Of a stretch of 35,167 nucleotides of DNA, positions 1,366-33,416 are shown in pieces (position 1 is the stretch's first letter; every line of letters begins with the position of its first letter). The notes under the pieces were generated by a model that saw nothing but the letters and a program-made list of their open reading frames with translations, was not told the DNA's origin and did no database searches. A program made the position numbers and the translations under genes. The stretch covers positions 1 to 35,167 of the IMG/VR virus record IMGVR_UViG_3300021357_000007; one strand, 5' to 3'. The stretch is from a virus.

Positions 1366-2997
1366 ATGAGTGACACGACTTTCGTAGCTGGTACAGTAAT
1401 TGCCTCTACTTGGCTTAATGATGTAAATGACACTGTTTACTCAGCCCTTGGTACAGGAGGTGTGGCCCCCACAACTGCTGCTACAGTCAGAACAAATCTC
1501 GGTTATCCAGCATCCACGGGTTCATCTCTTATTGGTCATATAGGGACTGGTACTGGTGTTGTGGCTACCACTGTTCAGAATAAACTTCGTGAGCAAGTAA
1601 GTGTTAAAGATTTTGGGGCTGTGGGTGATGGTGTCACTGATGATACAGCAGCTTTACAAGCTGCCCTGACTCGGGGCGGTTCTATTTTCGTTCCTGCCGG
1701 AACATATTTATTTTCGACGTTGACATTAGATGTCAGCAAAACTACTTTATTTGGTGCTGGCCGTGACACATCTGTTTTGAAATGTACTACTACATCAGGA
1801 ACTGCCATTCTAGTCGGTAGTAGTTCAACTCAAAAAGAAGATTTAATTATTCGCGACATTGGAATCGCCGCACAATCTGCTCGTACAGCCGGGTCGGCAA
1901 CAATTTACTGCCCTAATTCATATAATGTTTTCTTTGAGAATTTACAATTTACTGGGACACATGGGACGGCCCTCTGGGTAGATGGAGGAGCCGGTCAATT
2001 TCTTACCCATATTAACAAAGTAGAGATTTTTACAGCCACTATTGGGATAGGTCTAGGTCTTACAACAGCATTGGGTCAAGTACAAGATATTTGGCTATCT
2101 GAAATCATAGTGTCCAGTTGCACAGATGCAGGCATTCGTATAAATCATGCTAGCGGAGTGTATATGTCAAGCATTGATGTTATAACCTGTAGTAAAGGTA
2201 TTGCGATTGAACCCGTAAGTGGGGCACAGGCAAAAGCTCTCTTTATGACAGCGGTACTGGCGGATACCTGCACAAATGGCGGGTGGGTTATTTCACCTCC
2301 TGCTGGTGGGTCGGTTGTGGATGTAAATATGATGGGTTGCTGGGGAGCCACGACTACAAATGCGGTTGGGGCTGGGCTAGTTATTGATCCCACTGGCGGA
2401 AATGTGTCTAACATTGCATTGAGTGCATTTCGTGCCGTAAATAACAAGGGTGCTGGAATCAGAATCAACGGGGGGAAAAATATCACTCTGACAAATTGCC
2501 ATTCGTCAGGCAACAGCCAAGCTACAGTCAATACATATGATGGTCTAAATATTGCAAACTGTTTTAACGTAAATATTCTCGGAGGGGTATTCGGTGGAGA
2601 TGATGATTTACCACAACAACAGCGATATGGCATCAGTGTGGCAGCGTCAGTGAACAAGTATGCAATTATTGGAGCTGTCGTTGAAAACAACGACACGGCT
2701 GGCCTTTCTGATGCTGGGACTAATGGAAATGTGATTAGTAACGTTGGCCACAGGACTTCACAAGCTGGTCTTGTATCAGTTGGCTCCGGGCAGACTTCTT
2801 TGGTAGTCACACATGCTGTGAATTTCACTCCGACAGTACAGGAAATTCTTGTAATACCGGCGACAAATCCGACAAGCTCTGGATTGACAAGCTGGTGGGT
2901 ATCAGCGACGTCATCGACCACCTTTACTATAACGTTTAATACTAGCACAACAGCCACTGTGTTCTTTTCGTTTTTGATTAAGCGTACCGAGAATTAA
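1366..2997 (+). CDS. Tailspike / tail fibre with pectate-lyase-type beta-helix
   Basis: A 543-residue receptor-binding protein. Residues 1-75 form a probable virion-attachment head with low similarity to known types. Residues about 78-101 carry SVKDFGAVGDGVTDDTAAL, the hallmark that opens pectate-lyase-3/beta-helix domains in phage tailspikes. After it comes a long repetitive stretch with many Asn-, Gly- and Val-containing turns (for example GAGIRINGGKNITLTNCH), as expected for right-handed parallel beta-helix rungs. The last 75 residues look like a beta-rich cap. Such proteins bind and often cleave host surface polysaccharide; the catalytic residues cannot be assigned from sequence alone. 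It starts at ATG 1366 after TAAGGA and precedes the lysis genes. Confidence 0.8.
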   Translation: MSDTTFVAGTVIASTWLNDVNDTVYSALGTGGVAPTTAATVRTNLGYPASTGSSLIGHIGTGTGVVATTVQNKLREQVSVKDFGAVGDGVTDDTAALQAALTRGGSIFVPAGTYLFSTLTLDVSKTTLFGAGRDTSVLKCTTTSGTAILVGSSSTQKEDLIIRDIGIAAQSARTAGSATIYCPNSYNVFFENLQFTGTHGTALWVDGGAGQFLTHINKVEIFTATIGIGLGLTTALGQVQDIWLSEIIVSSCTDAGIRINHASGVYMSSIDVITCSKGIAIEPVSGAQAKALFMTAVLADTCTNGGWVISPPAGGSVVDVNMMGCWGATTTNAVGAGLVIDPTGGNVSNIALSAFRAVNNKGAGIRINGGKNITLTNCHSSGNSQATVNTYDGLNIANCFNVNILGGVFGGDDDLPQQQRYGISVAASVNKYAIIGAVVENNDTAGLSDAGTNGNVISNVGHRTSQAGLVSVGSGQTSLVVTHAVNFTPTVQEILVIPATNPTSSGLTSWWVSATSSTTFTITFNTSTTATVFFSFLIKRTEN

Positions 2998-3057: not shown

Positions 3058-3450
3058 ATGGCAGCAATGGAATCAAGCGGGGCATGGGGCCTCGCTGCAA
3101 TAACAAAATTTGGGTGGATTAAGTTTGTATCTTTGGGTGCTGCTTTACTTGGTGCTGGTATTATGGCTATGTCCCGCCCCCCTAAAACCCGAAGAGAGCA
3201 GTTTTATCAAGGCTTAACAGCTTTAGGTAGTTCGTTTCTTTTTGGGGATTTTGCTGTAAGATGGGCAGCCACTTTCTTTACTTTTGTGAACCTGTCTACT
3301 GACAGCTTCTTTGATGTCCTGACTTTCTATGCAGCAGTGCATGGATTGATTGGGGCTGTTGCATGGGGAGTCTTTGGAGGTATTGGTAGCTACCGAGATA
3401 GGTTTACTCAAAATCCAACAGAGGCGGTGAAAGATGTTAAGTCTTTATAA
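3058..3450 (+). CDS. Putative holin (three membrane segments)
   Basis: A 130-residue membrane protein with three predicted hydrophobic segments at about residues 18-38, 55-78 and 86-110, joined by a short basic loop (RPPKTRREQ) and with a charged tail. This size and topology fit class I-like holins that permeabilise the inner membrane at lysis. No family-specific motif is recognised, so the call depends on topology and on its position directly before the inner and outer spanin genes. It starts at ATG 3058 behind TAGGAT and overlaps the i-spanin by 17 bases. The 60 bases before it are AT-rich with no clear promoter. Confidence 0.6.
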   Translation: MAAMESSGAWGLAAITKFGWIKFVSLGAALLGAGIMAMSRPPKTRREQFYQGLTALGSSFLFGDFAVRWAATFFTFVNLSTDSFFDVLTFYAAVHGLIGAVAWGVFGGIGSYRDRFTQNPTEAVKDVKSL

Positions 3451-3772
3451 AAACTATATCCTTGCTGGTTTGTTTATTGTCTACTCTTTAGGTGTCTGGC
3501 ATGTAGCTGGAACTTACAAAGAAGCTAAATATATAAAAGAAAATCTTGCCCAAGCAAATAAGGTTATAGAACTTACCGAAAAGAACCAAGAGATCATTGC
3601 AGGGATAGACAAGAAACTACAAGAAGGTTTTGCTAAAATTAAACCACAAGTCACGACAATCAATAAGGAGATTCAACGTGAAATTATTGAAAATCGGATT
3701 TATTCTGAGTGTAAGTCTACTCCTGATCTCGTGCAGCAATTTGAGGACAAGCTCGACCTCTACTCCCAGTGA
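3434..3772 (+). CDS. Inner-membrane spanin (Rz-like)
   Basis: A 112-residue protein with one N-terminal membrane anchor (ILAGLFIVYSLGVWHVAG, about residues 9-26) followed by a Lys/Glu-rich helical region likely to form a coiled coil. This is the layout of Rz-type i-spanins, which sit in the inner membrane and pair across the periplasm with an outer-membrane lipoprotein to fuse the membranes at the last step of lysis. The gene overlaps the putative holin at its start and contains the start of the o-spanin in another frame, the classic nested Rz/Rz1 arrangement. Confidence 0.8.
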   Translation: MLSLYKNYILAGLFIVYSLGVWHVAGTYKEAKYIKENLAQANKVIELTEKNQEIIAGIDKKLQEGFAKIKPQVTTINKEIQREIIENRIYSECKSTPDLVQQFEDKLDLYSQ

Positions 3773-3932
3773 GGGTTGGTTGGTTGAGTGTGCCCCTTGG
3801 CCCAAGGATGGGAAGTACAAGGACTTCGGTGAAGTCTGGCAATATCTAAATGATAGGGCCGACCAGTATAACGACTGTGCTAAACGTCATAATGCTTGGG
3901 TAGAGTTTGAACGTAAGAAAGTAACAAAATGA
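3678..3932 (+). CDS. Outer-membrane spanin lipoprotein (Rz1-like), GTG start
   Basis: An 84-residue lipoprotein read in a different frame from the i-spanin, overlapping its last 95 bases and extending past it. The start is placed at GTG 3678 because AAGGAG lies seven bases upstream and the product then begins with a compact lipoprotein signal, KLLKIGFILSVSLLLISC, with the lipidated cysteine at residue 19. A longer frame from ATG 3630 exists but would bury that signal. The mature part contains SSTSTPSEGW and then a charged segment. Partner of the i-spanin for outer-membrane disruption. Its end overlaps the adaptor gene by 4 bases (ATGA). Confidence 0.8.
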   Translation: MKLLKIGFILSVSLLLISCSNLRTSSTSTPSEGWLVECAPWPKDGKYKDFGEVWQYLNDRADQYNDCAKRHNAWVEFERKKVTK

Positions 3933-4642
3933 GTACTATATTTCAGTTAACTAGGGATGACATCATTAATGCTGCTTTGCGTAAACTCCTTGTTGTGGGG
4001 GAGTCTACGACAGCTAACGCTGCTCAACTTACTACAGGAGCACAAGCTCTTAACGCCATTGTGGCTACGTTTCAGTCTCTGGGGATGCCTCTATGGGCTC
4101 GTAAGGAGCTGGCTATCACCATGGTAGCTTCTCAGAGGGACTACACCATTGGTGTTGGTAAAACTATTGCCCAGCCCTTTCCTCTTCACATCTACCAAGC
4201 TGTTCTTAACATTCCCAACAGCAACAGTCAGATTGATGTAACGATGATGGCTAGGAATGATTTTAATCTCTTGCCTTCTACTAAAGGGAATACGCCTGTT
4301 AATGCCACATATCAGCCGTTCATTAACTATGGTGTGCTGTCTGTGTGGCCAACACCATCAGCAACTATTCCTGCATCCACGACAATTACTCTGACCTACC
4401 AATCTCCGGCTGAATATTTTACTACTGGCACAGGTACTCCCAATTTTCCACAGGAATGGACAAATGCATTAATCTATGCTCTTGCTGAGTCTTTGGCTCC
4501 TGAGAACGGCCTGCCTCTTCCTGATAGGCAGTATATAGCTAGAGAAGCAAAAAGACATCTGGATGAGGTACTAGCTAATGGAGCAGAGGATGGTAGCGTG
4601 TTCTTTGGTAAAGACTGGGCTGGTAGCAACTTTAGGGGATAA
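3929..4642 (+). CDS. Head-tail adaptor, P22 gp4-like
   Basis: A 237-residue virion protein. The N-terminus (RDDIINAALRKLLVVGEST, followed by a helix with NAIVATFQSLGMPLWARKE) resembles the helical start of P22 gp4-type adaptor proteins, which bind below the portal and close the head. The central part is beta-rich and the last 60 residues are again helical (EWTNALIYALAESLAPENG). It lies directly upstream of a P22 gp10-like gene, the same order as in P22. The similarity is by pattern and order; I could not align it. Confidence 0.65.
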   Translation: MSTIFQLTRDDIINAALRKLLVVGESTTANAAQLTTGAQALNAIVATFQSLGMPLWARKELAITMVASQRDYTIGVGKTIAQPFPLHIYQAVLNIPNSNSQIDVTMMARNDFNLLPSTKGNTPVNATYQPFINYGVLSVWPTPSATIPASTTITLTYQSPAEYFTTGTGTPNFPQEWTNALIYALAESLAPENGLPLPDRQYIAREAKRHLDEVLANGAEDGSVFFGKDWAGSNFRG

Positions 4643-4645
4643 ACT

Positions 4646-6103
4646 TTGGCTTTCGACAAGACACCGGGTCAGTCTACCTATCAGACTAAAGATATCAAGC
4701 TTCTCCAACAATGGGAAACACGCGATAAAACCAACGCTAAAGATAACGACACAATCAATTGTTTTTATGAAGTAATTAAGAACAAAACTACAGAAGATAA
4801 AGAATATTACGTAGTTTCTAGGGACGGGAGTGTTACCTATCCTTATGTGGTTCCCTCAACCAACATCCGGGGAATCTATTACTGGGAAGATCAGAATAAA
4901 CTGTTTGTAGCTTATGACACAAGTATTGCTGTTATTACCGCAAACACTGGGGTTTTGGTAACTACTATTGCTCCCGGTTTTGCTGCTGGATCAACTGAGG
5001 TGGGCTTTACAGAGTTTAACTACGATGTGGGCACCACCAAGTTAGTTGTCACTAACGGAACTGTTCTAGGTACAATTGATACTGCCAATACTTTTGTGGC
5101 CTCTACCGACCCCGATCTCCCTGTTCCTCATGTACCCACTCCTGTTTTCTTGGATGGGTATGTCTTTCTAGTTAAGTCGGGTACGGCAGACATTTACAAC
5201 AGTAACCTGAACGATCCTCTTCTGTACACAGCAGGAAACTTTATCACTGCGGAAATGCTCCCGGATACTCTTGTCAGACTAGAGCGATTGAACAACTACC
5301 TAATAGCTTTTGGTTCAGCTTCTATCGAGTATTTTTGGGATGCTGGTATTGCTACTGGTAGTCCTCTACAACGAAACGACACTCCTGTCAAACTAGTTGG
5401 ATATGTGGGCGGTATTGCTCATTGGGGAAATAAGATTTATTTTGTGGGGAACACCTCTACTACAGGTCCGGAACTTTATGTACTAGATGATCTTAAAATA
5501 GAAGACTTAGGGCTCCCCCCTTTACGGCGCTATTTAGAGCCCTTCTCAACGGGTCTTTATGGGAGTACATTCTCTAACGGAGGGCATGATTTTTATGCCC
5601 TGACGGTAGGTACTTTGACTTATGTTGTGGACTTGGAAACTAAGTTGTGGACTAGGTTTGCTTATAAGGCTCAGACCAACTTCCCCATTAAGTTCTCCCT
5701 AACTCTCCCTTTCACTGGGTATGGTAACACCTCTCTGTTTGTTTTAGATGGTGTGGCTACCATGAGTAGCTTCAGGGCAGGTGTGTTCTTAGATGATGGG
5801 GTTGATTTCAGTCCTACTGTAATTACTGATCCTCTGATGTTTTCTACCTATCGTAAGAAGTTTGGAGGTCGTTTGTCCATTTTAGCAGACCGTCCAACTA
5901 ACACTGCTTACATCACTGTCTACTGGTCAGACGATGATTATCAGACTTGGAGTGCAGGAAGACAGGTAGCTCTTAATCAGGAGTATCCTGCTCTAAATGC
6001 TTTAGGTAGTTTCCGACGTAGGGCTCATAAGTTTATCCACACTGGTAATGCTCAGATGAGACTTCAGAAGGCGGAGATCGATGTAAACATGGGAGCTAGA
6101 TAA
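4646..6103 (+). CDS. Packaged-DNA stabilisation protein, P22 gp10-like
   Basis: A 485-residue protein, close to the 472 residues of P22 gp10, the hub protein that plugs the portal-adaptor channel and carries the tail needle. It begins at TTG 4646 behind AGGGG, 3 bases after the adaptor stop. Recognisable gp10-type features include LNNYLIAFGSASIEYFWDAG in the middle (P22 gp10 has a matching FGSSTIEYF segment), repeated beta-propeller-like strands, VVDLETKLWTRFAYK, and a C-terminal segment with RRAHKFIHTGNAQMRLQKAE. Its stop overlaps the start of the next gene. The gene order gp4-gp10-needle supports the assignment. Confidence 0.75.
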   Translation: MAFDKTPGQSTYQTKDIKLLQQWETRDKTNAKDNDTINCFYEVIKNKTTEDKEYYVVSRDGSVTYPYVVPSTNIRGIYYWEDQNKLFVAYDTSIAVITANTGVLVTTIAPGFAAGSTEVGFTEFNYDVGTTKLVVTNGTVLGTIDTANTFVASTDPDLPVPHVPTPVFLDGYVFLVKSGTADIYNSNLNDPLLYTAGNFITAEMLPDTLVRLERLNNYLIAFGSASIEYFWDAGIATGSPLQRNDTPVKLVGYVGGIAHWGNKIYFVGNTSTTGPELYVLDDLKIEDLGLPPLRRYLEPFSTGLYGSTFSNGGHDFYALTVGTLTYVVDLETKLWTRFAYKAQTNFPIKFSLTLPFTGYGNTSLFVLDGVATMSSFRAGVFLDDGVDFSPTVITDPLMFSTYRKKFGGRLSILADRPTNTAYITVYWSDDDYQTWSAGRQVALNQEYPALNALGSFRRRAHKFIHTGNAQMRLQKAEIDVNMGAR

Positions 6104-7137
6104 TGGCATTACTACCCCCAAGTCCAGTAGGGAGCCCTCCGGGGTCTTCTTATTGGAATGATTGGTATGAGAAAATGAGGACTATTGTTAATGGCATCAC
6201 AGGTAGTTATGTGGTGTCGTTTAATAGTAGGACAGGAGCTGTAACGTTAACTTCTGGCGATGTGACGGGTGCTCTTGGGTACACTCCGGGAACGGTAACT
6301 AGTGTAGCAGCAACAGTGCCGTCTGTGTTCTCTATCTCTGGTTCCCCCATTACAACATCAGGTACGCTGGCTATTACCTATTCGGGATTGGCTCTGCCAG
6401 TGCTTAATGGAGGAACAGGAACCACTACATCAACAGGCACGGGCTCTGTTGTTTTAAACACATCCCCTACTTTAGTTACTCCAGCTTTAGGAACTCCCTC
6501 TTCTGGTGTTGCTACTAACTTGACGGGACTACCACTAACTTCAGGTGTTACTGGAACTCTTCCTATTGCTAACGGGGGTACTGGAACTACAACGGCTACG
6601 GGAACTGCTGGTAGTGTTGTTCTCTCAGTTTCTCCCACGCTAACAGGAACTCCTTTAGCTCCTACAGCGGCGGCGGGAACAAGCACCACTCAAATAGCTA
6701 CAACAGAGTTTGTAAACAATACCATCACTGGCCCGGCATTCAGTGCCTACCAAAGCACCACTCAAAGTGTCCCTAATGCTACCTTAACAAAAATACAATT
6801 ACAGTCAGAAGAATTTGACACGGGACTCGCTTTTGATTCAACTACAAATTATAGGTTTCAACCCACAACGGCCGGTTATTACCAAATATCCGGGTGTTTC
6901 GCATCATCTGTTGCAACATCACTAATCGTTTCTGTTTTTAAAAACGGGGCCGAGTTTAAAAGAGGCCAGCAATTGTTAGGCTCTCATAACCAAGTTGAAA
7001 TGTCATGTCTAATTTTTTTGAATGGGTCTACTGATTATGTTGAGTTGTTTGGTTTTCAAGCATCTGGGGCTCCGGCCAACTCATCGACAGGGGCCCATAT
7101 AACTTATTTTCAAGGCTTTTTAGCAAGAGCAGCTTAA
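6103..7137 (+). CDS. Needle-position fibre with C1q/TNF-like C-terminal knob
   Basis: A 344-residue fibre. Residues about 40-70 carry SRTGAVTLTSGDVTGALGYT, a common phage-fibre module. Two imperfect Gly/Thr-rich repeats (NGGTGTTT) follow, then TQIATTEFVNN, a fibre repeat ending. Residues about 212-344 form a C1q-like beta-sandwich: GPAFSAYQSTTQSVPN, TTAGYYQISGCF, VFKNGAEFKRG and VELFGFQASG. The gene stands where P22 has its tail needle (gp26). Some P22-like phages, such as Sf6, have a needle knob with a TNF-like fold, so this may be a needle with a host-contact tip. Trimerisation is expected. The start overlaps the stop of gp10. Confidence 0.75.
   Translation: MALLPPSPVGSPPGSSYWNDWYEKMRTIVNGITGSYVVSFNSRTGAVTLTSGDVTGALGYTPGTVTSVAATVPSVFSISGSPITTSGTLAITYSGLALPVLNGGTGTTTSTGTGSVVLNTSPTLVTPALGTPSSGVATNLTGLPLTSGVTGTLPIANGGTGTTTATGTAGSVVLSVSPTLTGTPLAPTAAAGTSTTQIATTEFVNNTITGPAFSAYQSTTQSVPNATLTKIQLQSEEFDTGLAFDSTTNYRFQPTTAGYYQISGCFASSVATSLIVSVFKNGAEFKRGQQLLGSHNQVEMSCLIFLNGSTDYVELFGFQASGAPANSSTGAHITYFQGFLARAA
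6394..6498 (+). repeat. Fibre repeat, copy 1
   Basis: First of two imperfect repeats of about 35 residues inside the fibre gene: LPVLNGGTGTTTSTGTGS then VVLNTSPTLVTPALGTP. Each unit has a Gly/Thr-rich turn followed by VVL..SPTL. Confidence 0.7.
6559..6666 (+). repeat. Fibre repeat, copy 2
   Basis: Second copy of the unit, reading LPIANGGTGTTTATGTAGS then VVLSVSPTLTGTPLAPT. It diverges from copy 1 mainly at its C-terminal end and leads into the TTEFVNN segment before the knob. Confidence 0.7.
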
Positions 7138-7155: not shown

Positions 7156-8535
7156 ATGTCTCTAAAAAAGAAGGCTGCTCAAGTCAGGGCGGCAGGACAC
7201 AAGAACTCTAGGCAAGACTCAATGCTTGCCCACATCACACCAAGAGAAGCCCGCTTCTTAAAAGCTGGCGGAGGTTCTGGTAGGAAAGACCCTAAGACAG
7301 GGCTACCTCATTATGAGGGTTTTGGTGACTCTGATACTGGAGGCTTCAGTGACTCCGGTGGTTACAGTTCTAGTGATGCTGGGGGCTATGGTGGAGGTTG
7401 GGGTAGTGAGGGACTGTCTGATTTAGCTTCTATGGATGTGGGTAGCTACGGCCCCGTTGCTGGTGTTATGGCAGGTTCCCCAGCAGACAATGAGGGTGCT
7501 TTCAGTGACCCCTTCAGCAATCCCTACAGTGAACTTAGCTGGGACTCTCCCCTTAGTGATCTGACCCCTACGGATGTAAACAGCTATGGTCCTGTGGCAA
7601 ATGTACAGGCAGGCTCGCCAGCAGAGGGAGAGGCTGACACTTTCTCAGAGATGGCTGCTAAACGTGCTAGGGCAATGGCCATGGGCCAAGTAGCTAGCAA
7701 ACTAGGCATCCCCGGTCCTGTTATGTCTGCTGTAAACATTGGTATGGCTAAAACCCCACAAGACCAAGCCCGTGCTTTTGGTAACACTGTCTCCTCTGGC
7801 ATCTTGGGAGCTATGGGGCCTTTGGGTATGGCTTTAGGTATGACCCCTGCTGGTAAAGCTTTGGGTAACGCCTTAGCTAGTTTTGAGGGTACCCGCACTG
7901 ACGCACAGCGAGCAGGGGCTAGCGCTGCTACTGGTGCTGCTGGCCGTGCTGCTGGTGGTGCAGGCGGTGATTTTGATATAGGTGGGGTTCTTACAGGACT
8001 TGCTGGTCTCTATCAAGGCAACCAAGCTGCTGGTTTGGCTAAGGGTGCTCAAGGACTGGCTCAGGGACAGGCAGATACTCTTGCCAATATGTATGGTCCT
8101 AACAGCCCCTATGCTGCTCAGCTTCGTCAGCAACTGGAGCGTAAGGATGCTGCCGGTGGGCGTCGTAGCCAATATGGCCCAAGGGAAGTAGAGCTGCAGG
8201 CACGTCTTGCTGATGTGGCTTCTAGGAATGCTCCTAACACTCTTGCTGCTCAACAAGCAGCCATGGGATATGGTCAGCAAGCTAACCGTACTAGGGCACA
8301 GCAGTTTGGTACATTGGCTGGACTAGCTAAAAGCTCAGGCCTAGCTGGAATGGCCCAACGAGGGTTGTCGGGTATGTTTGACGGAGGTGGGTACGGCTCT
8401 ACGGGCACAGGTGGCTTCTCTGATGCTGGTGTGTCTTATAACAATCCTTCTGCCTACACTGCTCCTGACTTAGGTGTTCCTGATACTTATGATGCTTATG
8501 ATTTTCAAGGTGGTGGCGGTAGCTACTGGGAGTAA
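7156..8535 (+). CDS. Internal / ejection protein, Gly- and Ala-rich
   Basis: A 459-residue protein starting at ATG 7156 behind AAAGGAA. The N-terminus (SMLAHITPREARFLKAGGGS, then DPKTGLPHYEG) is a motif often seen at the start of podophage internal virion proteins. Residues 55-165 are very rich in Gly, Ser, Asp and Pro and contain a duplicated segment. Residues about 165-290 are Ala/Gly-rich and helical. The part near 305-380 is amphipathic and helical, and the tail is again Gly/Tyr-rich. Low-complexity, membrane-active composition and position (after the needle gene, before two further ejection-type genes, as in the P22 gp14-gp7-gp20-gp16 order) suggest a protein ejected with the DNA. Exact equivalent in P22 unclear. 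Confidence 0.65.
   Translation: MSLKKKAAQVRAAGHKNSRQDSMLAHITPREARFLKAGGGSGRKDPKTGLPHYEGFGDSDTGGFSDSGGYSSSDAGGYGGGWGSEGLSDLASMDVGSYGPVAGVMAGSPADNEGAFSDPFSNPYSELSWDSPLSDLTPTDVNSYGPVANVQAGSPAEGEADTFSEMAAKRARAMAMGQVASKLGIPGPVMSAVNIGMAKTPQDQARAFGNTVSSGILGAMGPLGMALGMTPAGKALGNALASFEGTRTDAQRAGASAATGAAGRAAGGAGGDFDIGGVLTGLAGLYQGNQAAGLAKGAQGLAQGQADTLANMYGPNSPYAAQLRQQLERKDAAGGRRSQYGPREVELQARLADVASRNAPNTLAAQQAAMGYGQQANRTRAQQFGTLAGLAKSSGLAGMAQRGLSGMFDGGGYGSTGTGGFSDAGVSYNNPSAYTAPDLGVPDTYDAYDFQGGGGSYWE
7417..7491 (+). repeat. Tandem duplication in the ejection protein, copy 1
   Basis: Residues 88-112 of the ejection protein read SDLASMDVGSYGPVAGV-MAGSPAD. The unit recurs 46 residues later with seven or eight changes, indicating an internal duplication. 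Confidence 0.6.
7555..7629 (+). repeat. Tandem duplication in the ejection protein, copy 2
   Basis: Residues 134-158 read SDLTPTDVNSYGPVANV-QAGSPAEG, matching copy 1 in frame (shared SDL...DV.SYGPVA.V.AGSPA). Confidence 0.6.
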
Positions 8536-14473: not shown

Positions 14474-15025
14474 TTATACTTCACAGGAGCCGCCGCACTG
14501 CTCAGCCACTTTAACACACCAATTAATAAACTCATCTTCTGTCATATCATTTTTCATAGTATTTATCCTTTTATGTACCCATTGAATGTTTCCTTTAACA
14601 TATCCAATGGACGAGTCGGTACGATCAAGAGAGGCTGTGCTTTTACTCCAACCCGTGTCCTTTTCTACAAGAGTAAGAACTTGACCGGAATAGGGACACA
14701 ATCCTCGCTGCGCCTTCCAAACATCTACTAAATCCTGTAATGAGACTCCAACCTCTTTTTTTCTAAATTTAAGTTTGGTAAGATACTGAACAGAGACACC
14801 ATCAATACCCTCCCAGAACGAATACTTCTCCCTTTCAATCGCATTACAACTTTGACAGCCTTTTGATCTACCATTCACTAGTTGACCCGCACGTCTGATA
14901 TAGTCACGATTACAGCCTATACAAGTGACATCCCAGTAATGTTCGTTGTTATAGTGGGAGTACCCTATAACTTTCCATTTACCAAAGAGAGTACCTGTTG
15001 GTGCAGGAATGTACTTTGATTTCAT
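14474..15025 (-). CDS. HNH homing-type endonuclease next to nrdJ
   Basis: A 183-residue protein with a zinc-binding half (CIGC near residues 35-38, CQSC near 57-60) and a C-terminal HNH-type segment containing GLCPYSG, ASLDRTDSSIGYVKGN and IQWVHKRINTMKND. This arrangement (CPxSG, then SLDRxDSxxGYxxGN, then QWVHxxIN-MKN) is common in phage mobile nucleases. Its ATG overlaps the stop of the ribonucleotide reductase gene. Free-standing nucleases often protect their own genome site and spread to related phages; here the target is probably near the nrdJ 3' end, which is an inference. Confidence 0.8.
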   Translation of the reverse strand: MKSKYIPAPTGTLFGKWKVIGYSHYNNEHYWDVTCIGCNRDYIRRAGQLVNGRSKGCQSCNAIEREKYSFWEGIDGVSVQYLTKLKFRKKEVGVSLQDLVDVWKAQRGLCPYSGQVLTLVEKDTGWSKSTASLDRTDSSIGYVKGNIQWVHKRINTMKNDMTEDEFINWCVKVAEQCGGSCEV

Positions 15026-21394: not shown

Positions 21395-21423
21395 ATTGTA
21401 ACAGACTTCTTGCCACTTGTCAA
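21395..21423 (-). promoter_or_regulatory. Sigma-70-type promoter (extended -10)
   Basis: On the minus strand: TTGACA at 21423-21418, a 17-base spacer, then TACAAT at 21400-21395 preceded by TG one base away (an extended -10, TGTTACAAT). Five of six bases match each consensus or better. The -35 overlaps the TGA stop of the polymerase C-terminal gene. It would drive the HNH, SSB and downstream replication and nucleotide genes. Confidence 0.75.
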
Positions 21424-22166
21424 GAACTTCTTGCTAATTTTTCCATGTTTTTCATGTTTGGGCCAAACTTGGCTTCACATGTCATGGGAACAACCCACTC
21501 ATAACGATAAATCTTCTTAATATTTAGTTGTAAGTCGTCAAACACTTGGTAGGCCAAGTCAGTGAGCTGTTGTAAATATTCAGAAGGGGTGTCGATCAGT
21601 ATGCTGTCATGAACTGTCGAAATGAATTTACAGGGAATTCCTAGAGCTTTCACTCGTCGGAAGAGGGAGATGCGTACAATGGTCATAATGTCAGCCCCCG
21701 TGCCCTGAACTGGATAATTGCTGAGAATAGTCCATGGAATCTTTAGTTCCCCATGGTTGCCATTACCATGGTTATTGCGACGCATAGGAATGCTCCAAGA
21801 GCGTCCTAGGGGGCCTACAATTGGTTTTCCACTAACTACAAGGTCTGCCCATTCTTTATGTTTCTTATCTAATCCATGATATTTCTTGTAAAACTTCTCA
21901 TTAACATTGTCCCAGTATTTAGGGTTGTCAGACACATGCATGAAGTCGTTGTCATTTGCAAATGCCCAACCTGAGCCCCTGAACAAAGTCCTGAAAAGAT
22001 ATACTTTCGCTATAAGGCGGCTAGGTAGTTCAAAAGCAACTTGATTCAAACTATGTGTATCTAAGCCTTCTATGATCTCCTTTATAGCCTGAGAGTCTTT
22101 ACTAAGTTCGGCTGCTACCCTCCACTCGGGCTAAAGCTGTGCCGCATCAATAGATAAGAGGGGCAC
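21420..22166 (-). CDS. Family A DNA polymerase, C-terminal part, broken by an in-frame amber
   Basis: Carries the polymerase palm and fingers: motif A (SIDAAQL then EWRVAAEL), the fingers O-helix (SRLIAKVYLFRTLFRGSG then WAFANDNDF), and motif C (STVHDSILID). It continues the N-terminal half encoded at 23028-24158; together they make about 625 residues, a normal phage size. A GTG at 22166 stands six bases behind a perfect AAGGAGG, giving MPLLSIDAAQL. However TAG at 22133-22131, with the extra codon CCC, separates Q-L from E-W within motif A. The next possible in-frame start is TTG 22049, after motif A, which would not give a full polymerase. The true product thus depends on suppression, repair or a sequencing error. 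Confidence 0.7.
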
Positions 22167-22665
22167 AGCCGACCTCCTTGGAATGCACAGCAAGCACTCC
22201 TTTGGCAAAAGCAATTAATTGCTCTTTAGTAGCTCTATTTTTCATTTGGTTGGCTAATATGGATATTACTTGAATGTTTTCTGAAATATACCCTTTACTA
22301 GAATCAATTCGATCTATGGATGCCCATGCAGCGGGGTCACCGGTATTAAGTGGAATACCTAAATAGGGACATAGTTCTGGAATAATAATATCTTCAGGCG
22401 TAATTGTGAATTCTCTAGAACCATATTCATATTTTACTCGATCTCTTGCCTTTTTCCATAAGTATTTTGCAGGGTCAGTGCTCCGCCTCTTTTCCATATG
22501 CCTACGTAGAATTTGCTTAGCCTTCTCCGGGTCTGCTGCTGTTGTAGCACGAGATTTGGCATTAACACATTCCTTACAGGCATTATGTCGGCCATCTGGT
22601 CGGGCCGTGAACTTACCAAATAGATCATCTGCTTTCTCTATATTACACCATGCACACACCCTCAT
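22147..22665 (-). CDS. HNH homing-type endonuclease interrupting the DNA polymerase locus
   Basis: A 172-residue nuclease. N-terminal zinc-binding pairs CAWC (4-7) and CKEC (about 30-33) precede a helical linker and the HNH-type part: ELCPYLGIPLNTGD, ASIDRIDSSKGYISEN and ILANQMKNRATKEQLIAFAK. The set CPYxG, SIDRIDSxxGY, AN-MKN-AT is typical of phage mobile nucleases. It overlaps the polymerase C-terminal start by 20 bases and its ATG overlaps the upstream stop, so it is precisely fitted into the split polymerase. Confidence 0.8.
   Translation of the reverse strand: MRVCAWCNIEKADDLFGKFTARPDGRHNACKECVNAKSRATTAADPEKAKQILRRHMEKRRSTDPAKYLWKKARDRVKYEYGSREFTITPEDIIIPELCPYLGIPLNTGDPAAWASIDRIDSSKGYISENIQVISILANQMKNRATKEQLIAFAKGVLAVHSKEVGCAPLIY
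22173..22179 (-). promoter_or_regulatory. Strong ribosome-binding site for the polymerase C-terminal part
   Basis: AAGGAGG on the minus strand, six bases before GTG 22166. It lies inside the 3' end of the HNH gene and decides the start used for the polymerase C-terminal part. Confidence 0.6.
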
Positions 22666-22856
22666 GGTTTAAATAGCGCCGCTGTCTGAGCAGCGCCTGC
22701 TCCAAAGTTCATGTGCTGATAGACCTGACGTGCCTGCGTAGGAAAAGAATCAATGAAGCGAGTAGCTACATCCTTAGCTCCCTGTTCCTGAATCAAACTG
22801 GCGAAGTCAGACAAGATTTCATTAAATACAACTTCATCAAGCTCTTTGTTTGTCAT
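22662..22856 (-). CDS. 64-residue protein between the polymerase halves
   Basis: A small protein starting MTNKELDEVVFNEILSDFAS and ending with TQARQVYQHMNFGAGAAQTA and a Phe-Lys-Pro end. No motif recognised. It overlaps the Rmf-like gene by 20 bases and the HNH gene by 4 bases, so the three are likely translated together. Confidence 0.6.
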   Translation of the reverse strand: MTNKELDEVVFNEILSDFASLIQEQGAKDVATRFIDSFPTQARQVYQHMNFGAGAAQTAALFKP

Positions 22857-23031
22857 CGAGTTCCTTTAACAATATTTTAGAATCTGCATCACTCCACCCA
22901 TGGAGCCATGAATGGAAGGCCCATTCCAATCCATTCTCATAATTTTCCCAATAGGGGTTGGCTTTGGTTCTCTGTCCTGCTTCCCTAGCTTCATATCCCT
23001 GTTTATAAGGAAGTTCTTTTATTTTGCTCAC
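22837..23031 (-). CDS. Ribosome modulation factor (Rmf)-like small protein
   Basis: A 64-residue protein with KQGYEAREAGQRTKANPY and LEWAFHSWLHGWSDAD. The pattern G..AR.AG....NPY followed by W..GW resembles bacterial Rmf, which dimerises ribosomes in slow growth. Short Rmf-like proteins also occur in phages with unknown roles. It begins with GTG overlapping the TGA that ends the polymerase N-terminal half. Confidence 0.65.
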   Translation of the reverse strand: MSKIKELPYKQGYEAREAGQRTKANPYWENYENGLEWAFHSWLHGWSDADSKILLKELDDKQRA

Positions 23032-24158
23032 TCGTATTCCGATACAAATACGTCTTGGATTTCTGACGCGAAGTTCTGTTGGTTTGGACGAGAACTAGAC
23101 AGTCGACCGGTTTGGGCAAGTGTTTGATTGAGCTGACCATGGAGTTTGCCTTTTGGCCAATGCATTTCTTCATTTAATTTCGGGAGTCCTCTGTAATAAG
23201 TACCATTGAGTTTCTCAGCCTTAGCAAGTGTAAGAAGAGTTTCGACAACTTTCTTGTGCTTACCCTTAAGTTTCCTTAAACAACCTTCGTTTGTCTCATA
23301 GAAGCCTTCCTTTTGTAGTTCACTACCCTTGACAGGCTCAAACAAACGAGGGAGCGTGTGCTCAATTTCCTGATTCTTTAGTTTTGGTTGTCCCTTTTTA
23401 ATGCCCGATTTATAGAACCCATCGTGAACTTTAATAGTTTCCACAATTTTCCCGCCATAGAGAAAGGCAGAGAGATGATCGCCAGAATTGAAGTTAATGG
23501 GTATATTAGGGTAGAAGTTTGAGAGTGTCTGCTTGAGCTTTTCTGTTTCTGCATCTAACTCCTTCGATCTTTTGTCACAAAGCTCTGTGTCGTAGGTAAT
23601 TCCGTTTTGTTCCATCTCCTGTAAAACCAGCATGTCCTGACTCATAAGCTTACACAGCTTAATCTGAGCAGGGCCCATTAGTTTAAGTTGTGCATAATAA
23701 CATTGTAGGGTAGCACTAGCATCATAAGCAGCATACTCACGTAGGATAGGCCAAGGAACATCTTTGGTATCAATACCTTTATCCCAGTATTCTGTTTTAA
23801 CAACATCGAGCTTAACAGGAATGCCGTACTTGATACAAGTGTCGTTGAGGCTAGGAAACTTATGTTGCTGATGGCTAATAATGAACTCAGCAATTTGAAC
23901 ATCCCAAACTTTTACATTGGAAAAATCTACCCCATATTTACGGAGCCACGCAACATCAAATTTAAAGTTGAACCCTATGAGCGGCTCGGCCCTGTTAACC
24001 ATGCTTTGTACAGGTTCAGGTTTGGTCCATAGATAGGCTTCACTCCAATGCTCCTCTGCTGCGCTCCAACACACTAACTCATTACGACGGTCATACGCAT
24101 TCCCTTTCGAGAATATAGTTGTCTCAGTGTCTATGGCTATAGGACTAGGGTAGGTCAT
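23028..24158 (-). CDS. Family A DNA polymerase, N-terminal part (3'-5' exonuclease plus thumb)
   Basis: A 376-residue protein with an intact DnaQ-type proofreading domain: IAIDTETT (D10, E12), LIGFNFKFDVAWL (D68) and REYAAYDASAT (Y142, D146). The thumb region follows and ends with LHGQLNQTLAQTGRLSSSRP, then NQQNFASEIQDVFVSEYE and TGA. In intact polymerases the TGRLSS.xPN.QN block is followed within about 25 residues by motif A, which here lies on a separate frame 0.9 kb downstream. The gene is thus split exactly at the thumb-palm border. The start ATG overlaps the end of the 58-residue gene upstream by 14 bases. Confidence 0.85.
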   Translation of the reverse strand: MTYPSPIAIDTETTIFSKGNAYDRRNELVCWSAAEEHWSEAYLWTKPEPVQSMVNRAEPLIGFNFKFDVAWLRKYGVDFSNVKVWDVQIAEFIISHQQHKFPSLNDTCIKYGIPVKLDVVKTEYWDKGIDTKDVPWPILREYAAYDASATLQCYYAQLKLMGPAQIKLCKLMSQDMLVLQEMEQNGITYDTELCDKRSKELDAETEKLKQTLSNFYPNIPINFNSGDHLSAFLYGGKIVETIKVHDGFYKSGIKKGQPKLKNQEIEHTLPRLFEPVKGSELQKEGFYETNEGCLRKLKGKHKKVVETLLTLAKAEKLNGTYYRGLPKLNEEMHWPKGKLHGQLNQTLAQTGRLSSSRPNQQNFASEIQDVFVSEYE

Positions 24159-28732: not shown

Positions 28733-29437
28733 TCATACAGCCATCTCCTCTTGTGTTGTCAACCTGCCAGCTATGTTCAGCATAGTTAATGTGGCTTGAC
28801 AGCCAGCGTTATGAATACAATACATCCATTTAGTTTTATTCTCTTGCGTAACCTGCACAGAGTCTCCTAGGAACGTCCATCCACCAAAGGCGGGCTTATA
28901 CCCATGCCTAAGAACATGCTCGCGCCACCTGCCCAGAGGATTGTCTACCTGTGTGTAGGGATTGGCTTCTACCAAACTTCTAATGGAAGTGAACACCTTG
29001 TCACAGTGGGCCATCCTGATTAGATATGTTAGATAGCTAATTTGATAGGTGCTGCTGAAGAACACTTTCGGAATAAAGATGAGAATGTGAGCCCCGTCCT
29101 GAGAGAAGTTTAAAGGAGGAAGCCCATTCTCCACAGCATTGTCCCTGATGAGTTGTAGATTGGCTTTCAATTGCGCATGCCATTTCAGCCTTGACAACCG
29201 GACATACACCCCCTCAGTGTTAAGCTTAATATGCTCAAAATTCATTCCGTGAACATTCAGGACAAATCCGTTGTACTTAGCCACAACGTCGTTGAAATAG
29301 TCCTTACACTTAAACTCACCCGTTTGGTTCTCGTAGCTACCGTCCTCTTCCAGATAGAGGATGGACCAGCGGAGTGGATTAATCTGACCAGTTTCATTAA
29401 GTTTAAAGGGCAGATGAGCTGCTTGTTTAACTTTCAC
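28733..29437 (-). CDS. Unknown protein of the amidoligase cluster (234 aa)
   Basis: Follows the ATP-grasp gene with overlapping stop and start (GTG at 29437). The product has no recognised family; segments include AKYNGFVLNVHGMNFEHI, GAHILIFIPKVFFSSTYQIS and CIHNAGCQATLTMLNIAGRL. Tight coupling to the ATP-grasp gene suggests it works in the same pathway, perhaps as substrate-binding or scaffold protein. The stretch 28694-28732 before the next gene holds nothing recognisable. Confidence 0.6.
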   Translation of the reverse strand: MKVKQAAHLPFKLNETGQINPLRWSILYLEEDGSYENQTGEFKCKDYFNDVVAKYNGFVLNVHGMNFEHIKLNTEGVYVRLSRLKWHAQLKANLQLIRDNAVENGLPPLNFSQDGAHILIFIPKVFFSSTYQISYLTYLIRMAHCDKVFTSIRSLVEANPYTQVDNPLGRWREHVLRHGYKPAFGGWTFLGDSVQVTQENKTKWMYCIHNAGCQATLTMLNIAGRLTTQEEMAV

Positions 29438-30126
29438 AGAGACTCCTCAATTGCTTTTACGTAGGCTTCTACATTGCTTCCTTCAATTCCCGGCGCGGAA
29501 TTAACCTCGATGACAAAGAGGTCATTCTTCTTTTCGTTATATCCAATGTCAACTCCCTTAAAGTCGGAACCAACTACCTTGCCTGCGGCGATCGCCAGAG
29601 CGCCAATTCCTTCAGGGAGGTTAACAGGATTTTGGCAAAATACATACCCATTAGCCAAGTTACGGATGTGAGTGTCACGCACCCCGTTCCAATCTGAGCG
29701 AGCTTTCTTTTCAACAATTGCAACCACCCTTTCTTGAAAAACATGAACACGAAACTCCCGTTTCTTTTTCTTGTACTTGGTATAGACAGGAGCCCACCCA
29801 ATATCAGGCTCTACATGAACAGTAATGCCCTTGCCGCAAGATGACATGAGAAGATGCCGTGCGACAACAACCTCACCGTCAGATACCCAGTCAATAGCCA
29901 CTTCCCTATCTGTGGTGTACTCCAGTGCTGATAGTCCCTGTGCCTCAAACCACCGATACTGAGCTATTTTGTCAACCCCCTGCCCATACAAGAGCTGCTT
30001 ACGGCGCAAAGAGGTTTTCAATGTCCGTAACACCTTATAGCCCAGCTTAGCTGAAAGAGCTTGGGCAAGGCGTTTAGCTGAGCCCGACCCACGAGTACCC
30101 GCTGTAAGTTTAATGTTAAGTTTCAT
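29434..30126 (-). CDS. ATP-grasp ligase (RimK-like)
   Basis: A 230-residue ATP-grasp protein that should join a carboxyl group to an amine through an acyl-phosphate. Key elements are the lysine and glutamate segment YKKKKREFRVHVF, then VEKKARSDWNGVRD, and the metal-binding end DFKGVDIGYNEKKNDL then FVIEVNSAPGIEG (Glu-x-Asn typical of the family). The first 40 residues are a shortened pre-ATP-grasp part. It lies in the cluster with two amidoligases and two amidotransferase-type proteins, which strongly suggests amide-bond chemistry. Confidence 0.8.
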   Translation of the reverse strand: MKLNIKLTAGTRGSGSAKRLAQALSAKLGYKVLRTLKTSLRRKQLLYGQGVDKIAQYRWFEAQGLSALEYTTDREVAIDWVSDGEVVVARHLLMSSCGKGITVHVEPDIGWAPVYTKYKKKKREFRVHVFQERVVAIVEKKARSDWNGVRDTHIRNLANGYVFCQNPVNLPEGIGALAIAAGKVVGSDFKGVDIGYNEKKNDLFVIEVNSAPGIEGSNVEAYVKAIEESL

Positions 30127-30325
30127 CTTGTTTCATTTTCAAATAGAGTTTATCCAAATGACTGAAGTTGGCTGGATTGGCCTTGTAGCCTAGCCACGCA
30201 TCCTGTTTCTGTTTCTCAGAGGAAAACCACACCCCAGTATAATACAGAACAAAGACTTTCTTAAATTCAGCCTCATCCATCCCAGACCAAACCTCAGCCT
30301 TCTCTCTACATAGAGGAGCCAACAT
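30116..30325 (-). CDS. 69-residue small protein of the amidoligase cluster
   Basis: A small protein whose product contains MDEAEFKKVFVLYYTGVWFS then SSEKQKQDAWLGYKANPANF. No motif recognised. The ATG overlaps the stop of the class II amidotransferase gene and its end overlaps the ATP-grasp start, so it is translated with both. Could be a small subunit or carrier. Confidence 0.55.
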   Translation of the reverse strand: MLAPLCREKAEVWSGMDEAEFKKVFVLYYTGVWFSSEKQKQDAWLGYKANPANFSHLDKLYLKMKQDET

Positions 30326-31518
30326 CAGTGCACCGAAGCATCTTGCTCAACTACGGGCAGGATGTCCTTGACAATGACAATAATTTGTCCCAGCGCAGCA
30401 TCATACTGAGTATCTACAATACGTCCAATCCAATCTGTTTGAAAATCTACTTCCTTAATGGACATACCAAGTGAGCTTAAACTAAGCTGTCCACGGACTA
30501 AGTGCTTCACCTCATTTAAGTCATAGGCATAGTCTTCGCTAGTACCTAACAGGATTATATCATCGCTGGGATTGCTAATGTCCTTTTCTACCCAATCGAC
30601 CAACGTAAACAAAAGCTGCTTACCTATTAAAGCATTTCGGAATCTTTTGTATGCGTTTTTACTGCATCTAGGGGTGGTGCCATTAACCACTTCATCCACT
30701 GCCCTATCCCTAGGTTTACCATCTGAAAAGGGGGCTGAGTTAGTACTCGCACCCCCAGTGTTGCTCCCAGTACGGCCTTTCCATACCTGTACTGGCTTTG
30801 GGAGTAGGGGGTACTCCTTCACAACACCCCCCGCTTTCTCTGTATCAAACAGATAGAGTGTGTCCACTGCCAAATACTTATGGCTAATTTGTTTCTCCCC
30901 ATTCCGGCTAGCAATCCAGTTGGCCAATCCCAGCTCACTTGCAAACAAAAGGGAGTCCTTAGTTTCAAAGACACCTAGAGGACGCTGACTATTCCTAATC
31001 ATACCTACTTGGTTGCGCTTCTGATCATACCAAACACAAGCAAAGGCCCCTTCAACTTTCCATACTGCCTCTGACATGGCCTGTACAAAGTCTTCCTGAT
31101 CCATTGCCTGTTTAAACAACGTAGCAAGAGCCTCTGAGTCCACCTCTGTATCATGCAATTGCTTATGATTGCGCAAGGTGCCATTATGCACCATAGCAAA
31201 CGTGTTGTCAACTACAAAGGGATGGGCGTTCTCATCTTTGTTTTCGCCGATAGTCTTGGCCCTATTGTGCCCAATGACAGCCGAACCGTTCTTAAACAAG
31301 TCTTTGTCAAGAGAAGAGTCAATAAATTGATAATTGAAAGTGGCAGAGTCACTAGCCTCCTTCATAATACCAAAGTCACCATTGTTGTGGCAGGTAATTA
31401 CACCTGTTGCATCTTGTCCACGAAGAACATCAGCAAACAACATTTCATAAAACATCTTCTGCTCAAACTTATTAAACCCGTTAGTGTTTTTAGTAATGAG
31501 CCCGACGATTCCACACAT
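30325..31518 (-). CDS. Class II glutamine amidotransferase (GATase II)
   Basis: A 397-residue protein that starts with MCGIVGLITK, so that removal of Met exposes the catalytic Cys as the N-terminal residue; this fixes the start at ATG 31518 over the longer frame. Other active-site features are VLRGQDATGV, NRAKTIGENKDENAHPF, MVHNGTLRNH and an Asp in EVDSEALAT. The N-terminal half is the Ntn-hydrolase domain that frees ammonia from glutamine. The C-terminal 170 residues have no recognised synthetase domain, so ammonia is probably passed to a ligase encoded nearby. Confidence 0.85.
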   Translation of the reverse strand: MCGIVGLITKNTNGFNKFEQKMFYEMLFADVLRGQDATGVITCHNNGDFGIMKEASDSATFNYQFIDSSLDKDLFKNGSAVIGHNRAKTIGENKDENAHPFVVDNTFAMVHNGTLRNHKQLHDTEVDSEALATLFKQAMDQEDFVQAMSEAVWKVEGAFACVWYDQKRNQVGMIRNSQRPLGVFETKDSLLFASELGLANWIASRNGEKQISHKYLAVDTLYLFDTEKAGGVVKEYPLLPKPVQVWKGRTGSNTGGASTNSAPFSDGKPRDRAVDEVVNGTTPRCSKNAYKRFRNALIGKQLLFTLVDWVEKDISNPSDDIILLGTSEDYAYDLNEVKHLVRGQLSLSSLGMSIKEVDFQTDWIGRIVDTQYDAALGQIIVIVKDILPVVEQDASVH

Positions 31519-31522
31519 CGCG

Positions 31523-31660
31523 TTATGCCGTCCACTTATTAGTAAACATAGTCTTTCCCACTTGAAACTCAATCAACCAGTAACGAAACTTCGGTTTATT
31601 TTCTAATAGATAGATACAAGTAAACTTAAATCCCGGAGAATACATTTTTACTTTACGCAT
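31523..31660 (-). CDS. 45-residue small basic protein
   Basis: A frame from ATG 31660 behind a strong AAGGAGG to TAA 31523. The product reads MRKVKMYSPGFKFTCIYLLE then NKPKFRYWLIEFQVGKTMF. It lies between the amidoligase and the GATase II gene. Basic, beta-like; function unknown. Confidence 0.6.
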   Translation of the reverse strand: MRKVKMYSPGFKFTCIYLLENKPKFRYWLIEFQVGKTMFTNKWTA

Positions 31661-31669
31661 AAAGCCTCC

Positions 31670-32449
31670 TTAGTTGAATGACAGCTTAATATCAAGAAGT
31701 GAATCGGACAGCAGCTCAGGAAGCATACCAGAATATTTTAACACAGAAGGAGAGTCCTTAAAAATAGATTTAAAAGCTTCTTGCACAGCGTTGTCATCCT
31801 TAATGGCTTTCATGTTTACAAAGTTCTGTTGACCATAGAGCCACAGGTTTTCCAAAGCATTAAGCCACTCACGGAGAGTTTCAACGTTGTCTGTTCCCTG
31901 CATATGCCGAAACTCCATAGTTCCAATGCTAGCAAGAGGAATCAAATTAAGAGCTGTATACTTACTCCAGCGTTGAACCATAGTGTTAAGGGGCCGGTTG
32001 TATGACTCACTCAGACAAGTTTGATCTAGTCCCACACAATGGATGTTGTTCCTTCGGGAAGGGTCCACCATCAAGAAGAAGATTGGCTCAAACAAGGCAT
32101 ACCATAGAGCAATTGACTTGGTAGAATCAGTCTCAAGGTCAAGGCAGTTTATATGAACATGGATGGATGTTCGTGGGCTAAACCTCTTGGTTTTGTCCTG
32201 ACTCTTGTAAGTAATGAGGTTGTGTAAAGCATCAAACGTTTCTAAGAGCCTGTCTTTGGGTAATGGGGTCGAGATGAACTCACGCCCGCTGTCCCGCAGA
32301 GAACCATCCTCTGTAATGTCCCATACACCACTCTGTGCAACCTTGTCATCCCAGAAATCAATATTCTCAATTTCACATTCCAGACCTGCAATGAAGTCTT
32401 TAGAAGCAAACCTAGAGGACACTCCAAAATGTTGACGTACAGTAGGCAT
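31670..32449 (-). CDS. Amidoligase (putative amidoligase family, GCS-like fold)
   Basis: A 259-residue protein of the amidoligase family related to glutamate-cysteine ligase and glutamine synthetase, which joins a carboxylate to an amine using ATP. Family motifs are IAGLECEIEN (E24, E26), GREFISTPLP, RTSIHVHINCLDLE (H97, H99) and IGTMEFRHMQGTD. The first group supplies metal ligands and the His pair and the EFR segment line the active site in related proteins. Its ATG follows the stop of the 228-residue gene upstream (TAATG). Confidence 0.8.
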   Translation of the reverse strand: MPTVRQHFGVSSRFASKDFIAGLECEIENIDFWDDKVAQSGVWDITEDGSLRDSGREFISTPLPKDRLLETFDALHNLITYKSQDKTKRFSPRTSIHVHINCLDLETDSTKSIALWYALFEPIFFLMVDPSRRNNIHCVGLDQTCLSESYNRPLNTMVQRWSKYTALNLIPLASIGTMEFRHMQGTDNVETLREWLNALENLWLYGQQNFVNMKAIKDDNAVQEAFKSIFKDSPSVLKYSGMLPELLSDSLLDIKLSFN

Positions 32450-33135
32450 TAAAGCTCCTCCTCAAAGAAAGCTGGCGCTGGAGTAAGGTCAAGCTGCTGA
32501 TAGACCGCCTCTTCTTTTTCAGGAGGGCGTGCTGTTTTCTTAACACTAAGTATTTTGTACATTCCTTGGTTATACCCTTCTACAACTTTCTCCACTTCAG
32601 GGATGAACAAGCTGCGATTAATCATGATTTGTTTTTCTTTGGGTTCAATCCACCCAATACGAGTCTTGTCTACAAAAATCCTGCCTGATGGGTCGACAGC
32701 CATACGAGAAGACACGGGATAGCTAGTACCCAAGGTGTCCCTAAACCCCATAAAGGCAGGCTTCTGTGTGTAGGAGTTGACAACATCTAGGTCCAAGTCA
32801 ATTCGACTAAACCCTGCCCCACCAAGAAACCATACACTGGTGTTCTCATGTGTAATTCCACGTTTGTATTGCCGTGCCGGGATGCGGGCAAGGAAGTGAG
32901 CACATCCATTATGCTCAAAGAAGCTCTTACGTGGCAGGATGAAGTCTACCTCTCGTGGTCCCTTGTCGAAAGTAAACTCCCACCCGTCAAACTCAGTGCC
33001 ACGGCGCTTACCGCTGAGTCCGGCAGCACTCACCTTGTCCACATACACAGCCTCATCCCCTAAGCAGGGGAATTTCATGTAAGACTTTTCGTAATATTTA
33101 CGAATGTCTTCCCAATTTTCTTTACAAAATTGCAT
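32449..33135 (-). CDS. Unknown protein of the amidoligase cluster (228 aa)
   Basis: A protein lying between the two amidoligase genes, overlapping the downstream one. Recognisable segments are WEDIRKYYEKSYMKFPCLGD, EFDGWEFTFDKGPREVDFIL and GGAGFSRIDLDLDVVNSYTQ. No family is recognised. Its conserved position suggests a pathway-specific role such as substrate or cofactor binding, or a structural partner of the ligases. Confidence 0.6.
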   Translation of the reverse strand: MQFCKENWEDIRKYYEKSYMKFPCLGDEAVYVDKVSAAGLSGKRRGTEFDGWEFTFDKGPREVDFILPRKSFFEHNGCAHFLARIPARQYKRGITHENTSVWFLGGAGFSRIDLDLDVVNSYTQKPAFMGFRDTLGTSYPVSSRMAVDPSGRIFVDKTRIGWIEPKEKQIMINRSLFIPEVEKVVEGYNQGMYKILSVKKTARPPEKEEAVYQQLDLTPAPAFFEEEL

Positions 33136-33137
33136 GG

Positions 33138-33416
33138 CTAAATTAGCTCCACTGCTTTGAGCTGACCTGTTTCACCATCGAAAGTAACTTTGAGATTGGC
33201 AAAACAGGCCCGTAGTGGAGCATCATAATCACCATTCATTTTGAGTAGAGCATACTCCACTATATCAGGCTCTGGTTTGATTCGATACGCTGTCTCTACG
33301 TTCCAGCTTGGGGTGCCTTCTCGATCGTACCACACCCTATCCCCAGTTTGATACTGAATTGTAGCACCATCTGCCCAAGCTTTTATTAATTCAGCATGTT
33401 TGTGAGGAGTTTTCAT
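33138..33416 (-). CDS. Conserved small phage protein (92 aa)
   Basis: A 92-residue protein containing HKHAELIKAWADGATIQYQT and TPSWNVETAYRIKPEPDIVE, a pattern often found in small phage proteins. The end binds the reading of FDGETGQLKAVELI. It overlaps the second amidoligase by 4 bases. Function unknown. Confidence 0.65.
   Translation of the reverse strand: MKTPHKHAELIKAWADGATIQYQTGDRVWYDREGTPSWNVETAYRIKPEPDIVEYALLKMNGDYDAPLRACFANLKVTFDGETGQLKAVELI

Follow-up and report, generated by a model that had tools for sequence, protein, structure and literature searches.

The needles of phages P22 and Sf6 have an N-terminal virion-binding domain in common (Leavitt et al. 2013, PMC3741392), and the tip of the Sf6 and HS1 needles is a TNF-like knob that probably entered this group recently (PMC3741392). 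P22 equipped with the Sf6 or HS1 knob still infects Salmonella, and changes to the tip slow the release of potassium (PMC3741392). C1q proteins of marine phages (pelagiphages) have been argued to be receptor-binding proteins (PMC3909814), and small fibers with TNF-like domains are found in Pam3 and in a Klebsiella phage, the protein of the latter being reported to bind LPS (PMC12671077). A needle with an exchangeable TNF-like tip is already known from Sf6 and HS1, and the locus described here would be a variant with another anchor, a fiber-type shaft and a C1q knob.

The virus record that was analyzed (the window, a stretch of 35,167 bases taken as a whole) is apparently a fragment of the genome of a short-tailed phage. 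No terminase, portal or capsid genes were found within the 35,167 bases, the head-gene part of the genome being missing from the record. The plus strand of the window carries a tail module with the following features:

1366..2997, plus strand: tailspike, pectate-lyase-like (PF12708, 3e-22), with the N-terminal anchor TTFVAGTVIASTWLNDVNDTVY
3058-3932, plus strand: holin- and spanin-like ORFs (from reading of the sequence)
3929..4642, plus strand: gp4-like head-tail adaptor (Ad3; phrog_12985 4e-17, phrog_637 2e-5)
4646..6103, plus strand: gp10-like head closure or nozzle protein (Hc3; phrog_578 9e-30, PF11134 only below the cut-off)
6103..7137, plus strand: needle-position protein of 344 aa with an ATG start (ORF calling)
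6103..6195, plus strand: N-terminal anchor conserved in the family, residues 1-31, LPPSPVGSPPGSSYWNDWYEKMRTIVN (family HMM; 72 gp10 loci have one member each)
6196..6729, plus strand: fiber-type shaft, residues 32-209 (sequence and tail-fiber PHROGs; no coiled coil by heuristic)
6730..7134, plus strand: C1q-like knob domain, residues 210-344 (AlphaFold and structure searches; profile match to C1QL2)
7156..8535, plus strand: Gly-rich protein with the GRRSQYGPREVELQ motif, presumed ejection protein (directly 3' of the family gene in relatives)

The gene order on which the original prediction was built (gp4, gp10 and then ORF 6103-7137 at the needle position) is borne out by the PHROG matches and by the slot that the needle genes of P22 and Sf6 occupy. 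The ATG of the ORF overlaps the gp10 stop codon by one base (TAATG), an overlap that is likewise present in 46 locus entries. The Gly-rich gene begins at most 60 nt 3' of the family gene in 57 out of 102 entries, with nearly all others being cut off or lacking a recognized motif, and is followed in the window by two further ORFs (presumed ejection proteins) and a lysozyme. Scans for promoters and terminators near ORF 6103-7137 gave nothing above chance. The closest named relative found was Alcaligenes phage vB_Af_QDWS535 (OK172329), whose tail module is colinear with that of the window; its family member (L097 11478-12035) is a 185-aa ORF without annotation, located between gp10 and a GNAT gene.

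Elsewhere in the record, the DNA polymerase gene looks split (21420-24158, minus strand) into an N-part at 23028-24158 and a C-part at 21420-22049. The two parts flank an HNH/endonuclease VII-like ORF (22147-22665), possibly as a result of an intron-like or homing-endonuclease insertion; Rfam at gathering thresholds identified no intron. The ORF is one of three HNH/endonuclease VII-like ORFs that are dispersed over the record (the others at 516-938 and 14474-15025). An amidoligase, a COOH-NH2 ligase, a RimK-like ligase and two glutamine amidotransferases are clustered at 29434-34851 (minus strand), which suggests a peptide- or wall-modifying pathway.

The last ~135 residues of the 344-aa protein constitute a genuine C1q-fold domain as judged from structure prediction and sequence profiles. 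The three short motifs that had originally led to the description of the C-terminus as C1q-like are all present and lie within this domain. AlphaFold was run on residues 205-344 with nine sequences and returned, as a monomer model, a jelly roll that is predicted with high confidence (pLDDT 92.1, pTM 0.87). The top Foldseek match of the model was C1QL1 (E 1e-8), and VIA-align gave Z scores of 18.0 for C1ql1 (2.1 A, 124 residues), 17.8 for Caprin-2, 17.6 for the knob of the phi812 central spike (1.9 A, 135 residues) and near 16 for the TNF-family protein EDA; the structural matches listed did not include the Sf6 knob. The sequence profile of the domain reached C1QL2 among the solved C1q-like proteins (E 4.7e-4). 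Pfam searches with the knob produced only a sub-threshold match to BclA_C (0.0018) and no assignment to PF16532; the full 344-aa protein had no Pfam match and only a chance match in NCBIfam, and nothing meaningful came out of PDB sequence searches, whether the query was the full protein, the anchor, or the anchor together with the shaft. Relatives of the knob are 36-56% identical to the window domain, with 17 invariant columns across nine of them. Predicted viral structures with this fold are numerous and many are already labeled C1q. The fetched relatives carry unrelated N-termini, and the domain is therefore mobile between proteins. By analogy with its C1q homologues, the knob may be trimeric.

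The shaft is rich in glycine and threonine, and segments of it match phage tail-fiber families (PHROGs). No stretch scored as a heptad coiled coil under a simple heuristic, compared with scores of 0.72-1.0 for the P22, Sf6 and X14-type needles used as controls, which sustains the idea of a fiber-type shaft instead of a coiled coil. The shaft had been described as containing TTEFVNN repeats; this motif occurs a single time (6700-6720) and the element that recurs is NGGTGTTT, found at residues 98-132 (6394-6498) and 153-187 (6559-6663). A GALGYTP element is present in one copy, and repeats at the DNA level extend over 14-15 nt only.

The anchor is a pattern of about 31 residues (LPPxPxGxPPGxSFWNDWYEKLRxxVN). 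A search with the anchor alone found nothing in 50,697 phage records and IMG/VR was therefore needed. With the gp10 relatives in IMG/VR as the starting point, an iterated HMM identified 102 ORF entries, some of which represent one contig fetched twice; a 14-sequence gp10 alignment was too diverse for scanning. Exactly one anchor-bearing ORF was present after gp10 in 72 out of 104 distinct gp10 ORFs (71 and L165, where the start was called too far upstream), and never more than one. The family member adjoins gp10 in 47 loci (L165 included); in the remaining 25 the two are kept apart by an inserted ORF, in most cases a tailspike. Many gp10 ORFs that lack a family member are cut by contig ends and others carry different needle-position proteins, e.g., coiled-coil proteins in X14 and Vibrio phage 1.184.A; in L155 the position is held by a small divergent member. 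The 72 distinct complete family members (a separate count that equals the number of loci by coincidence) range from 79 to 1280 residues with a median of about 152, and their distal parts measure between ~45 and ~1240 residues. At the lower end of the range (79-130 aa), members retain the anchor with little distal part. Two members of 992 and 1280 aa (L192:7479-10457 and L193:2296-6138) contain collagen-like Gly-X-Y repeats. The tailspikes at these loci use the other N-terminal motif, TTFVAGTVIASTWLNDVNDTVY, which was found in 91 ORF entries with zero overlap with the 102 entries of the needle-position anchor; each locus has 0-2 tailspike anchors, counts that are lower bounds given the limited flanks. 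On sequence grounds, the tailspike anchor is a recurrent putative docking motif that is distinct from the needle-position anchor.

Among relatives the anchor stays constant while stalks and knobs are swapped. Over the 72 loci, the identity of the anchor follows that of gp10 (r = 0.76, based on non-independent pairs). The distal parts are nearly always homologous when the gp10 proteins are >50% identical and are homologous in 43% of the pairs below 50%, which points to exchange between lineages rather than constant exchange. The window departs from this pattern, as its distal part is not homologous to that of any of its eight closest gp10 relatives; between the window and the nearest of these (L103), identity is 72% in gp10 and 78% in the anchor (27 residues), and the distal parts are unrelated. 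Overall, about 12 out of 72 members carry C1q/TNF-like knobs: the window protein, ten members of type v and L115. In the type-v members (229-240 aa) the knob is of a second C1q/TNF-like kind, a distant relative of the window knob (hhalign between the two: 95%, E 3e-8). An AlphaFold model of one of them (L157) has an overall pLDDT of 67, with values mostly of 80-95 in the knob and <55 in the N-terminal third, and the model has matches in Caprin-2, BclA and the knob of phi812 with Z scores of 15.6-15.9. L115 has a third version of the knob, with weak TNF and C1q profile matches and no shaft. In L147, the large ORF directly 3' of gp10 also has a C1q match, and L156 has a second one at another site.

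A search for other needle genes was conducted with phrog_1219, phrog_1030 and the X14 protein as queries. Neither the window (with its head-gene part missing) nor 15 long relatives yielded a needle of the P22/Sf6 type; these relatives were the complete QDWS535 genome and 14 others of 39-55 kb, of which those from IMG/VR may be incomplete. The P22, Sf6 and X14 controls were all recovered. Neither phrog_1219 nor phrog_1030 matched the window. One weak match to the coiled-coil part in a single relative (E 5e-4, 14 bits) was set aside.

On balance, ORF 6103-7137 probably, if by a modest measure, encodes a tail-tip protein that is the functional equivalent of the P22/Sf6 needle and has a swappable distal part. 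This reading is favored because the gene lies in the slot that gene 26 occupies in P22 and gene 9 in Sf6, because each gp10 locus has one anchor-bearing ORF with an anchor distinct from that of the tailspike, because the anchor tracks gp10 while the distal parts differ and the smallest members keep the anchor, because this slot is filled in Vibrio and Shewanella phages with gp10-like genes by coiled-coil proteins whose N-terminus is likewise Pro-rich/aromatic, and because C1q-like knobs recur on the anchor. We infer a trimer with a central location that plugs the tail, contacts a receptor and is released. The N-terminus of ~31 residues is probably the virion-binding part and would sit inside the gp10-like nozzle channel. 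The shaft, rich in glycine and threonine, would take the place of the coiled coil and project, and the C1q domain would be the distal knob (trimeric if the C1q homology holds). The knob might meet the cell surface after the tailspike has bound, and release of the protein would then open the channel.

Several observations count against a needle, the first being that neither the P22/Sf6 N-terminus nor the Sf6 knob has detectable sequence homology to the window protein. The main rival reading is a peripheral short tail fiber or receptor-binding protein: six trimers anchored outside the adaptor or nozzle would recognize a receptor with their C1q knobs, and gp10 would close the channel. This is a serious possibility, though less probable than a needle. 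In its favor, C1q domains are widespread on phage proteins and those of pelagiphages are argued to bind receptors (PMC3909814), and small TNF-like fibers are found in Pam3 and in the Klebsiella phage whose protein reportedly binds LPS (PMC12671077). That each locus has a single copy, placed in the needle slot, counts against such a fiber. The collagen-like members of 992 and 1280 aa resemble a fiber more than a plug, whereas members with little distal part, and an anchor unlike that of the tailspike, speak against a fiber. The C1q matches in L147 (on the large post-gp10 ORF) and L156 fit peripheral fibers, and the 25 loci in which another ORF, mostly a tailspike, intervenes between gp10 and the gene weaken the argument for a needle. 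Against the fiber, other phages with gp10-like genes have coiled-coil needle-like proteins in that slot.

It is very unlikely that the protein truly descends from an Sf6-type needle, with the coiled coil lost and the sequence changed so far that the kinship can no longer be recognized. The slot and the fold class of the knob are in common, and the profile of the anchor is weakly similar to the N-termini of the X14-type coiled-coil needles (above 198 out of 200 shuffles, 2/200 being as good), but the comparison with the P22/Sf6 N-terminus is at chance level (hhalign 0.1%, with 71 out of 200 column-shuffled profiles scoring as well). The window and Sf6 knobs gave an hhalign probability of 0.4% (HMM E 0.03), and the clear relatives of the knob are found on unrelated fibers. 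The best reading is that the window knob is like that of Sf6 in fold class, without detectable common descent. The relation to Sf6 that had been proposed holds as an analogy of slot and fold class, without detectable descent. The original prediction is partly confirmed in what it observed and partly supported in how this was interpreted; of the two outcomes named as contradicting it, neither a separate classic needle gene (in the window and the 15 long relatives) nor a lack of the predicted C1q fold was encountered. The idea that the C1q resemblance is due to the chance composition of a Gly/Thr-rich fiber, which could appeal to the domain having no name in Pfam or NCBIfam, is refuted at the level of prediction by the confident fold with Z 18 matches, the 17 invariant columns over nine relatives and the profile match to C1QL2, and is hardly credible.

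A wider proposal is made tentatively and with somewhat less than even confidence: widespread short-tailed phages may close their tails with a protein that has no recognizable P22-needle ancestry, held by a ~31-residue anchor in a gp10-like nozzle. The distal parts on this anchor would be swapped (among small beta tips, knobs of the C1q/TNF class and collagen-like fibers of ~1000 residues), and needles with a knob at the tip would have an origin independent of that in Sf6. If true, the needle slot would be a general docking site at which a short anchor is essential and the tip interchangeable, and knob-tipped tail needles would seem to have arisen more than once. The anchor would also provide a sequence handle for tail-tip proteins in uncultured podoviruses that now go unannotated (as does the QDWS535 member), and the family would bear on the function of the tip, a question raised by the P22 hybrids.

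Compared with known systems, the window protein is like the needle of HS1 and Sf6 (gene 9; PF16532, phrog_1030) in its slot after gp10, which is also that of P22 gene 26, in joining an N-terminal virion part that is conserved to a C-terminal tip that can be exchanged, and in the TNF/C1q jelly-roll class of its knob; for the Sf6/HS1 knob, too, a recent transfer is probable. It differs from this needle in that no homology was detected in the N-terminus or knob, in a shaft without a coiled coil by heuristic, and in a knob whose nearest counterparts, among the matches listed, are C1q proteins and the spike of phi812. The proteins of Shewanella phage X14 and Vibrio phage 1.184.A share the slot after a gp10-like gene and a Pro-rich, then aromatic N-terminus, but have a long coiled-coil body and no C1q knob, and their role as needles is likewise putative. 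The C1q proteins of pelagiphages and environmental phages (HTVC019P, MW202796) have a homologous C1q domain (32-42% identity) on N-termini that are unrelated where read, and the MW202796 gene lies away from gp10. Staphylococcus phage phi812 (PDB 9eul) carries a C1q-class knob on a protein named the central spike of the tail, although phage type and protein are different and the identity to the window knob is 15%. The SU10 needle gp18, which has a coiled-coil body and a beta-prism tip instead of C1q (PMC9509320), resembles the proposed protein in having a non-P22 C-terminal tip, in being seated in a beta-propeller nozzle and in being lost before genome release (PMC9509320).
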